A stretch of 64,000 nucleotides of DNA, from positions 124,001 to 188,000 of the forward strand of contig CALUOP010000003.1 of NCBI GenBank assembly GCA_944322305.1, written 5' to 3'. Positions 2,867 to 54,023 of this stretch are shown piece after piece. The notes under the pieces are model-generated. The model was not told the DNA's origin and did not search any database. It worked only from the letters and a program-made list of their open reading frames with translations. The stretch is from an uncultured Coriobacteriaceae bacterium. Its GTDB lineage: Bacteria > Actinomycetota > Coriobacteriia > Coriobacteriales > Coriobacteriaceae. Every line of letters begins with the position of its first letter. Positions within the stretch are counted from its first letter, which is position 1. A program made the translations under genes and the position numbers.

Positions 2867-4227
2867 TAAACGCAGTCTATGTGGCCGTCGCTGTTGAGAA
2901 ATGCCTGGTAGATAACCTTGATGGCCCGCTCGAACTCGTCGGCGCGGACGCCGGCGATGATGTTGATCTCGTCGGATCCCTGGGCGATCATGCGGATGTT
3001 CACGTGCGCGGCGCCGAGCGCGCCGAACAGGTGGCCCGAGATGCCCGGGCGGCTGGCCATGTTGCGGCCGACCGTGGCGACCAGGGCCAGATCCTCGATA
3101 ACCTCGATGTTGTCGGGGTGCAGCTCGTTTTTGATGTCGGCCACGATGGAGTAGAGCACGTCTTTGATGTCCTGCTTCTGGCAGACCACGGCGCACGAGT
3201 CGATGCCCGTGGGGATGTGCTCGATGCTCACGTGGTAGCGCTCGAAGATGGTGAGCACGCGGCGGAGGAACCCGACCTCGGTGGACATGTGGTTCTTCAC
3301 CACGCGGATGCCCACGAAGTCGCGCTTGCCGGTGACGCCGGTGATGATGGGCTCGGGCTCGCCCTCGCGCTCGGCCACCTCGGAGATGACGGTGCCGGGA
3401 TCCTCGGGGCGGTTGGTGTTCTTGATCACGATGGGGATGCCGGCGTCGCGGATGGGGAAGATGGCGTCCTCGTGCAGGACGCTGGCGCCCATGTAGGAGA
3501 GCTCGCGCAGCTCGGTGTAGGTGATGCGGCGGATAACCTCGGCCGTGGGGACGATGCGCGGGTCGACCGCGTAGAAGCCCGAGACGTCCGTCCAGTTCTC
3601 GTAGACGTCGGCCGAGAGGCACTTGGCCAGGATGGAGCCGGAGATGTCGCCGCCGCCGCGGTCGAGCAGCTTGATGCGGCCGTCGCGCGTGGCGCCGTAG
3701 AAGCCGGGCATGACCACGCGGAGCTTCTCGCCCGGGACGCTCTTCTCGGTCAGGACGCGCTTGAGCTGCTGGGCCGTGCGGTCCATGTCGAGCTCGCCGT
3801 CCTGGTGGAAGGCCACCACGTCAGCAGCGTCGACAAAGGTGAAGCCCAGGTACTCGGCCATGAGCTGCGCGGTGAAGTACTCGCCGCGCGAGACGATGTA
3901 CTCCTGGGTGCAGGAGCCGCCCTTGACCTCGCGCACGAAGGCCTGGAACTTCTCGCCCATGGGGTAGTTGAGCTTGAGCTCGGCCGCGATGGAGTAGAAG
4001 CGCTCGCCGATGCTGTCGAGCAAGTCGTCGCAGCTCACGTGGTAGGAAAGGTGCGCGTCGACCAGGTAGAGCAGGTCGGTGACCTTGCTGTCGCGCTTGA
4101 AGCGGCGGCCGGAGGCGCTTACCACCACGAACTGGCGGGCGGGATCGGCGTCGATGATGGCCTTGACCTTGCGGAACTGCTCGGCGTCGGCCACCGAGGA
4201 TCCGCCGAACTTGGTGATCTTAATCAC
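2866..4227 (-). CDS. lysC: Aspartokinase
   Basis: Phosphorylates L-aspartate, the first step of the lysine/threonine/methionine pathway. The amino-acid kinase domain starts with KITKFGGSSVAD and includes the conserved FGGSS loop and RGGGDISGS. Two ACT regulatory domains occupy the last 150 residues, implying feedback inhibition by lysine and/or threonine. I prefer GTG 4227 (453 residues) because GGAGAG lies a few bases upstream and the protein then starts directly with the kinase motif; an in-frame GTG at 4251 has no ribosome site. It is divergent from thrC and upstream of asd. Confidence 0.92.
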   Translation of the reverse strand: MIKITKFGGSSVADAEQFRKVKAIIDADPARQFVVVSASGRRFKRDSKVTDLLYLVDAHLSYHVSCDDLLDSIGERFYSIAAELKLNYPMGEKFQAFVREVKGGSCTQEYIVSRGEYFTAQLMAEYLGFTFVDAADVVAFHQDGELDMDRTAQQLKRVLTEKSVPGEKLRVVMPGFYGATRDGRIKLLDRGGGDISGSILAKCLSADVYENWTDVSGFYAVDPRIVPTAEVIRRITYTELRELSYMGASVLHEDAIFPIRDAGIPIVIKNTNRPEDPGTVISEVAEREGEPEPIITGVTGKRDFVGIRVVKNHMSTEVGFLRRVLTIFERYHVSIEHIPTGIDSCAVVCQKQDIKDVLYSIVADIKNELHPDNIEVIEDLALVATVGRNMASRPGISGHLFGALGAAHVNIRMIAQGSDEINIIAGVRADEFERAIKVIYQAFLNSDGHIDCV

Positions 4228-11387: not shown

Positions 11388-11832
11388 GACAGAGCGGGAC
11401 GCGCGGGCGAACGCGATAGGACGGGCGGGCGTTGGGCACGCGGGCGAAATCGCCACTCATACGAAGGCCGCGGGCCAAAATGCAACCCATACGACGCGTG
11501 CGGGCGAAATCCTCACTCATACGACGCCCGTGGGCGAGAATCGCATTCGTACGAGCCGGCATACCGAGCAACAGCGTTCAAACAGGTTAAAACATATCTC
11601 GGTGCGTCATATCGCCCCAACGGACATATCTCAGTGCGTTGCACAGGACGCGTCGACGCAGGCCTGCGTTCGTATGAACGAGATTCTCGCTCACACCGTT
11701 CGTATGAACGCTGTTCTCGCCCACAAGCCTCGTATCAACGTCGCTTTCGCCCATGAAGCTCGTATGAGCGCGGATTTCGCCCACGCAGCTCGTATAGGTG
11801 CGGATTTCGCCCGCTCGAACAGGGTCCCTGTG
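11388..11832. repeat. 30-bp degenerate repeat array, locus 1 (forward arm, centre, reversed arm)
   Basis: Between ecfA and the TrpP-like gene. About four forward units with a period of 30 (11442-11561) carry GGGCGAAAT/GGGCGAGAAT plus CACTCATACGA. A centre of about 110 bases (11562-11670) holds ACATATCTC twice. About five reversed units (11671-11820) then carry TCGTATGA plus TTTCGCCCA. The same unit and layout recur at 53330-54023. Because 30 is a multiple of three, frames stay open through the array on both strands, but none has a ribosome site. Leftmost bases 11227-11387 show only the ecfA upstream region. Confidence 0.75.
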
Positions 11833-11902: not shown

Positions 11903-12056
11903 GGGCATCACTCCGCCCGCTAGCGAGATATGCACGCTGAGGGCATCACTTCGCCTGCCAAGCAAAAAAATGCACGCCGGAGTATTTCTCCGCCTGCCGA
12001 GCACTGCTTTGCACGCCGGGGCCGTCACGCCGCCCGCCAGGCGACACCTCTTCCGC
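11903..12056. repeat. 38-bp tandem repeat, about 3.5 copies
   Basis: Units begin at 11903, 11941, 11979 and 12018 (periods 38, 38, 39). Each has GGGCATCAC-like sequence, CCGCCTGCC and a TGCACGCCG end, with the middle degenerate. Located between the 30-bp array and the terminator of the downstream gene. No coding function seen. Confidence 0.6.
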
Positions 12057-49428: not shown

Positions 49429-49565
49429 TCAGTTTGTCGCTGTTTCGGCACCTAATCGCCAGCCGGCCGCTCAGTTGGCCGCCGTTTCGGCACCCAATCG
49501 CCAGCTGGCTGCTCAGTTGGCCGCCGTTTCGGCACCCAATCGCCAGCTGCTCGCTGTTTCGACCG
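49429..49565. repeat. 42-bp tandem repeat (about 3 copies)
   Basis: GTTTCGGCACC starts at 49442, 49484 and 49526 (period 42). A shorter unit with GTTTCG follows at 49556. Each unit contains CAATCGCCAGC and CTCAGTTGGCCGCC, which can fold back on one another. It lies between rbr and mutY. Confidence 0.7.
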
Positions 49566-53329: not shown

Positions 53330-54023
53330 CCCGTGGGCGAGAACGGCCCCCGTACGAAAACCGTGGGCAAAGACGGTGCTCACACGAAAGCCGCGGGCGA
53401 AAATACCACCCATACGAAAGCCCGTGAGCAAGAACGTCACTCATACGAAGCCTGTGGGCGAAAATGTCAGCCACACGAAGCCTGTGGACGAAAATTGCAC
53501 TGATACGAACGTATCGGGCGAAAACTACACTGATACGAGAACGTTGGGCGATAAGCACACTCGTACGAGTGCGGTTCTCGCCCATCGGCTCGAGTCCACG
53601 CCCAACCGACGCAAACGCCACGCATTTTGCAAGGTTTTCATGACGAAAAGAGACATTGAACCGAGCGCATCGCGGTCCGAACGCCCTCGAGAAAGTCAAC
53701 CACGTCGTATGGGTTCGATTTTTGCGCACAGGCATCGTATGAGTGGCCTTTTCGCGCACAAGCTTCGTATAAGTGTGGTTCTCGCCCAAATACGTCGTAT
53801 GAGCTTGGTATTCGCCCGCGTGTACAAGCTCGCCTTTCGCCCGCGCAGATCGTTGGAGCTTGGCGTTCAACCGCGCAGGTCGTTGGAGCTTGGCGTTCAA
53901 CCGCGCAGGTCGTTGGAGCTTGGCGTTCGCCCGTGTCAGTCGCACAAGCACGCTTTTGCCAGCGTGGACCGTATACGTTCGCATTTTCGCGCGCGGATCG
54001 CACGAGCCCGCTTTTCGCCCGCG
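53330..54023. repeat. 30-bp degenerate repeat array, locus 2 (about 8 forward and 11 reversed units)
   Basis: About eight forward units (53331-53570; GGGCGAAAAT plus CACTCATACGAA with GCCTG at the join, period 30-31), a centre of about 140 bases (53583-53720), then about eleven reversed units (53721-54023; TTTTCGCCCGC plus CGTATGAG). Three reversed units near 53840-53930 are nearly identical (TCGTTGGAGCTTGGCGTTCA). The same unit and arm order occur at 11388-11832. Open frames run through on both strands because the period is a multiple of three. It fills the tRNA-phosphoesterase spacer. Confidence 0.8.

Follow-up and report, generated by a model that had tools for sequence, protein, structure and literature searches.

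Mirrored 30-bp arrays in the window and its genome

The window analysed here is a stretch of 64,000 nucleotides (G000:C3:124001-188000) from the genome of a gut-type Coriobacteriaceae bacterium (G000; 2.35 Mb in 15 contigs). Two distant intergenic spacers of this window carry arrays of the same 30-bp bipartite unit, arranged as forward copies, a centre and reversed copies, and both arrays described in an earlier note on this DNA were confirmed. We followed the arrays through G000, a metagenome-assembled genome of a sister species with the same unit (G001), and the remaining two species of the genus (G002 and G003). In all four species, one gene lies between two arrays (here referred to as the “bracketed gene”). 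Both this gene and the unit changed together in sister species, which suggests a previously undescribed partnership between a protein and its repeats.

At locus 1 an array is indeed present within the proposed 11388-11832, while the array proper occupies 11439-11815. Its forward arm (+ strand, 11439-11558) consists of four units of the form YGYGGGCGARAAnnnCRYTCRTACGAnnnn, starting at 11439, 11469, 11499 and 11529, and its reverse arm (- strand, 11666-11815) consists of five, at 11666, 11696, 11726, 11756 and 11786. The centre between them is 107 bp long (11559-11665), and the arm distance, which runs from the centre of block 2 in one innermost unit to its counterpart in the other (block 2 being the second conserved part of the unit), is 123 bp, which lies on the grid common to these arrays. 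This centre had been regarded as non-repeat sequence; however, it carries a motif of its own, in two direct copies (ACATATCTCGGTGCGT and ACATATCTCAGTGCGT) 32 bp apart on the + strand (11592-11639), which is also found in other class-1 centres.

Locus 2 has a longer forward arm of eight units (+ strand, 53332-53572), starting at 53332, 53362, 53392, 53423, 53453, 53483, 53513 and 53543. The last of them overlaps a - strand unit at 53557, and together they form a palindromic innermost unit (53543-53586). After a centre of 114 bp (53587-53700; arm distance 144 bp) comes the reverse arm (- strand), with four well-matching units at 53701, 53731, 53761 and 53791 (53701-53820) and an outer part (53816-54023) with degraded units and a triplication of recent date (98%; 53841-53928). 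The period at both loci is exactly 30 bp, with a single step of 31 bp (53392-53423).

We then searched the whole of G000 with the pattern GGGCGAAAATNNNACTCATACGA, allowing at most three mismatches, and obtained 119 places (54 on the + and 65 on the - strand), while the reversed pattern, used as a control, gave none. A sequence-only profile of the unit (R1) matched 189 units in G000 and 88 in G001, clustered into 19 and 18 intergenic loci, respectively. The repeat is thus shared between locus 1 and 53330-54023 as proposed, but the genome holds 19 such loci rather than two, and their diverged units exclude a simple segmental duplication, which had been named as the refuting outcome of such a search. 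Every complete locus has the same layout of forward units, centre and reverse units.

The unit of these arrays (type A) contains two conserved blocks: block 1 at nucleotides 3-12 (YGGGCGARAA), followed by a 3-nt linker, and block 2 at nucleotides 16-26 with the near-palindrome TCRTACGA, followed by a 6-nt linker. Among 364 units the conservation is confined to the two blocks, and the linkers are at base composition. In 26 loci the innermost unit of a single side is palindromic, with the order block 1, block 2 and inverted block 1. Unit scores fall outward from the centre, from a mean of 33 at rank 0 to below zero at rank 4. Several centres share motifs, for example two ATRnCCnTATGCGT-like copies 32-33 bp apart. 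The arrays lie beside housekeeping genes in all orientations and of no common function, and some are even inside operons (purF|purM, hemC|hemD and ftsY|ffh).

Of the 262 steps measured between type A units, 234 are exactly 30 bp long and a further 11 are 31 bp. The arm distances are not continuous and cluster at 112-114, 121-125, 133-136, 143-144 and 166-167 bp, with a best period of 10.5 bp (R 0.80; none of 2000 simulations was as high). These results bear out two earlier suggestions: that the arms form numerous binding sites separated by two to three helical turns, and that spacing or phase is under selection. Conservation at particular positions, the exact 30-bp step and the helical phasing of the arms, taken together, argue for protein binding sites that would be held on one face of the helix.

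Unit types and array turnover between species

With the R1 profile, G002 gave no match and G003 a single weak one. The latter led us to a G003 array of identical architecture, built from the unit TGCGCAAAAAnnnnnnCGATACGG (type B) and having an arm distance of 124 bp as in type A. A type-B profile run over 67 genomes of the family gave 55 matches in G003, 15 in G002 and little elsewhere. A further unit, YGGCGARAAnnnnnTCGATCCTA (type C), has 57 matches in G002 and only weak and scattered ones in other genomes. Type B keeps a spacing of 30 bp in 95 of 100 steps. Arm distances are 39-40, 59, 104, 114 and 123-125 bp in type B (R at 10.5 bp, 0.90) and 15, 25, 35, 89 and 120 bp in type C (0.96), and are phased in these two types too.

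The two species G002 and G003 can be compared at the same intergenic sites. At three of them (L119/L209, L161/L210 and L156/L211), whose flanks are 91-95% identical, the array is of type B in G003 and of type C or intermediate in G002. At another three (L154/L165, L157/L166 and L160/L167) both species retain type B, and we read the type-B arrays of G002 as relics. The simplest order of events is that type B was ancestral and that arrays at existing sites of G002 changed their type once this species had acquired a new cassette. A change of type at such speed, with the sites unmoved, speaks for arrays being actively copied or converted.

Arrays also come and go. The site of locus 1 has no array in G002 and G003, where it measures 127 bp as against 1031 bp, and its counterpart in G001 has a solitary unit (L101 1183-1212) between two similar genes, probably a duplicated pair. 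The site of locus 2 is 36 bp in G001 versus 764 bp in G000, with no obvious target duplication, and the word TCTCGCCCG stands at its left edge in both genomes. Arrays between purF and purM are found in G000 and G001, but in neither G002 nor four other genera checked. The array between hypC and hypF (L063 6338-6970 versus L057 6189-6579) has been turned round as a whole between G000 and G001, while the flanks are syntenic; a programmed inversion switch is unsupported, for none of the other pairs that are clearly orthologous and have a definable orientation is flipped. As a separate observation, inverted repeats unrelated to these arrays occupy the same intergenic sites in other Coriobacteriaceae (L104 480-600, L107 and L109), with the words GAGAGAT in G002, CTTCTTATGCA in G064 and GGGGACGTTCTTTAA in G004.

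The bracketed gene and its proposed partnership

The bracketed gene (P0001/P0002 in G000 and G001) is flanked on both sides by type-A arrays, and its ortholog lies between two type-B arrays in G003 and two type-C arrays in G002. Its neighbours are nagB and rpsI in G002 and G003 and other genes in G000 and G001, so the bracketing holds at two chromosomal places. Between G002 and G003 the gene is only 55% identical at the amino-acid level, with an identity at fourfold degenerate sites of 0.36, whereas the same measure reaches 0.93 for nagB and 0.96 for rpsI. A gene so diverged beside near-identical neighbours shows that an allelic replacement took place.

The gene is single-copy and comes from a large paralog family of Coriobacteriaceae, with several paralogs per genome. 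All four orthologs share the invariant pattern PDL..EYDS...H...DSxRR. Some paralogs match PF18741 (E 0.001-0.005) and DUF559 (E 0.009), all below the cut-off. From such weak matches, the bracketed protein may be nuclease-like, with a C-terminal region of restriction-endonuclease fold. A search of phage and plasmid collections with the protein gave one weak Collinsella record.

We further examined 18 paralog loci, two of which have strong arrays built from other units on either side of the gene. First, a paralog in G000 (L181) lies between type D arrays, with spacings of 30/32 and 52 bp, and a type D array without a gene occurs at L073. Second, a paralog in G002 (L177) lies between type E repeats (CTCCCAAGCCGGGACGTTGTGC) in both orientations at multiples of about 31 bp (1440-2021 and 3305-4158). 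In another genus, inverted repeats of the word GTACATTG are found on the downstream side of a paralog only (L171 3615-4000).

Taken together, we consider it probable that the bracketed gene product and its own phased arrays form a cognate two-part system, similar in logic to that of RAYTs (REP-associated tyrosine transposases) and REPINs (hairpin-forming doublets of REPs, repetitive extragenic palindromic sequences) and made of unrelated parts. Each locus would present two sets of 30-bp bipartite sites that face each other across the centre and share a helical face, and the bracketed gene most likely encodes the protein that recognises them. The system would comprise this one gene together with about 5-17 intergenic arrays that contain no gene; the protein would maintain, and probably spread or convert, the arrays of its own type. 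In one species a divergent allele took the place of the gene cassette, and arrays at existing sites switched to the new type. The architecture, the phasing, the lineage-specific types, the bracketing, the match of types, the gene replacement and the change of type at fixed sites are observed, whereas we infer that this protein binds the units, that it may act as a nuclease, how the arrays are copied, and what function (mobile, regulatory or architectural) or benefit to the host they may have.

Several observations weigh against this reading. When one value is taken per cluster of related loci, the phasing weakens to p 0.033 for type A, 0.11 for type B and 0.011 for type C. The units of L211 are intermediate between types B and C with a centre like that of type B, which fits gradual change as well as replacement, and five type-B arrays persist in G002 though the bracketed gene there is linked to type C. 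The bracketed protein has no Pfam match above the cut-off (PF18741 at E 0.008 and 0.19) and no match in PDB, and no strong arrays flank the remaining paralog loci of the 18. In addition, the system was found in four species only, and the proteome comparison was non-exhaustive, so that another array-restricted gene is possible.

A broader proposal is more tentative, and we would put it at somewhat less than even. The arrays may represent a new class of selfish or domesticated elements, in which restriction-endonuclease-like proteins would each have a private phased iteron array, with the gene bracketed, intergenic sites seeded and older arrays overwritten once the specificity has changed. A single genome would then contain several such pairs (A and D in G000; B, C and E in G002). 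If the partnership is real, its parts are unlike any seen in REP/RAYT systems, CRISPR or transposons, and it accounts for one class of repeats in the intergenic spacers of gut Coriobacteriaceae. It would also offer a natural record of specificity switching, in which close species have near-identical surroundings but differ in their site sequences and have had the partner gene replaced, and make the co-evolution of a DNA-binding protein with its dispersed sites directly testable.

Alternative explanations and known systems

Among the alternatives, the strongest is that the arrays are bound by a regulator or nucleoid protein of the host whose gene lies elsewhere, and that the bracketed gene is one of its targets, autoregulated or silenced, rather than the source of specificity. 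Phased intergenic sites do look cooperative, their housekeeping neighbours are of many kinds, and binding by the bracketed protein is putative. However, the arrays occur in every gene orientation and between the genes of operons without a common function, the bracketing of this gene recurs in all four species and at two chromosomal locations, the unit type changes together with its replacement, and two paralogs own separate arrays. We regard a host regulator as unlikely, though it deserves more weight than the explanations below.

The genome's own Y1_Tnp (RAYT-like) transposase was considered as the mover of the arrays, which would then be REP or REPIN elements. One PF01797 gene is present in each of G000 and G001 and none in G002 and G003, which fitted the arrays of the first two genomes, and the logic of one gene with dispersed repeats is shared. 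But G002 and G003 have arrays without this gene, 55 of the 67 family genomes have the gene and nearly all of them lack these arrays, no units lie near the transposase gene in G000 or G001, and the units are not hairpins. The family-wide count and the two species without the gene contradict the transposase as owner of the arrays, and we give this explanation very little credence. The sole Y1_Tnp gene adjoins gpmI in G000 and G001 (L116 1075-1869 and L117 1462-2205).

It had also been suggested that the arms fold into one very long stem, and the arms are in fact 70-77% complementary. A functional RNA or DNA stem would demand covariation at the variable positions, and none is seen: rank-paired arms within a locus have an identity of 0.345 there, and arms from different loci one of 0.341 (permutation p 0.41). 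The linkers of the palindromic units are not self-complementary (p 0.39), phase-locked centre lengths are needless for a stem, and the Rfam scan of the window gave tRNA-Asp as its sole match and no family matching the arrays. The stem as the functional form is therefore unsupported and highly improbable.

Equally poor is the standing of neutral tandem repeats spread by duplication and drift. Local duplication does occur, as in the triplication of locus 2 and in three near-identical units at G000 C2:51401-51483, and adjacent units are slightly more alike than others (0.415 versus 0.373). Nevertheless, conservation is sharply position-dependent over the 364 units, spacing is exact and arm distances are phased, and an identical change of the unit appears at several loci of one genome. 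An origin from phage or plasmid is dismissed, as the phage and plasmid collections gave no match to the arrays.

The statement that no known repeat class fits the arrays holds for those tested (Rfam, REP/REPIN, and the plasmid and phage collections), and we found no published description of such arrays in open-access text, although closed journals may contain one. The closest parallel is RAYT/REPIN (PMC2817692, PMC3686654, PMC3733652), where one gene per repeat class is flanked by its repeats, many intergenic copies are gene-less, and the lineage-specific classes are tied to a cognate gene; REP classes are defined by proximity to the RAYT gene, and their abundance depends on it (PMC3686654). 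In contrast, REPs are palindromic hairpins of 20-40 bp with a GTAG/CGTC tag and number hundreds of single copies, whereas here there are about 20 long phased arrays of non-hairpin bipartite units, with neither GTAG nor CGTC in the unit consensus, and what the bracketed gene encodes is no Y1 (HUH) transposase. The BrickBuilt MITE (miniature inverted-repeat transposable element) of Porphyromonas gingivalis is likewise intergenic with a short tandem unit and 19 copies per genome, but its unit is 23 bp, placed between leader and tail subunits with short terminal inverted repeats, and mirrored arms, a phased centre and a partner gene do not appear in the part of its description consulted (PMC4596501). 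The STAR elements of staphylococci are interspersed intergenic direct repeats, locus-stable and species-specific in location, and the consulted part of their description includes no mirrored architecture, palindromic core or cognate gene (PMC3532100).

Unlike CRISPR, the arrays have a repeat plus linker of 30 bp, linkers of only 3 and 6 bp, and mirrored arms, and no Cas proteins are found among the Pfam-scanned neighbours. MITEs and elements derived from insertion sequences have defined terminal inverted repeats and a target-site duplication; here the outer units fade gradually and, at the site of locus 2, no target duplication is evident. Oriented arrays of protein sites that form a phased nucleoprotein complex are known from transposon ends (Tn7 and Mu), where they are inverted between the two ends, and from iteron centromeres (R1 parC and F sopC). 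The present arrays differ from these in having fading outer units rather than defined termini, no internal genes, about 20 copies on one chromosome and an unrelated partner protein.

Two further repeats were observed in the window. Beside locus 1, at 11903-12040, there is a second short intergenic repeat family with the words CTGCCGAGCA and TTTGCACGCCGG and copies 39 bp apart, and this family has the word CTGCCGAG in common with the type D units of L181. At 49429-49549, a 42-bp tandem repeat (2.9 copies, 92% match) lies within an open reading frame.
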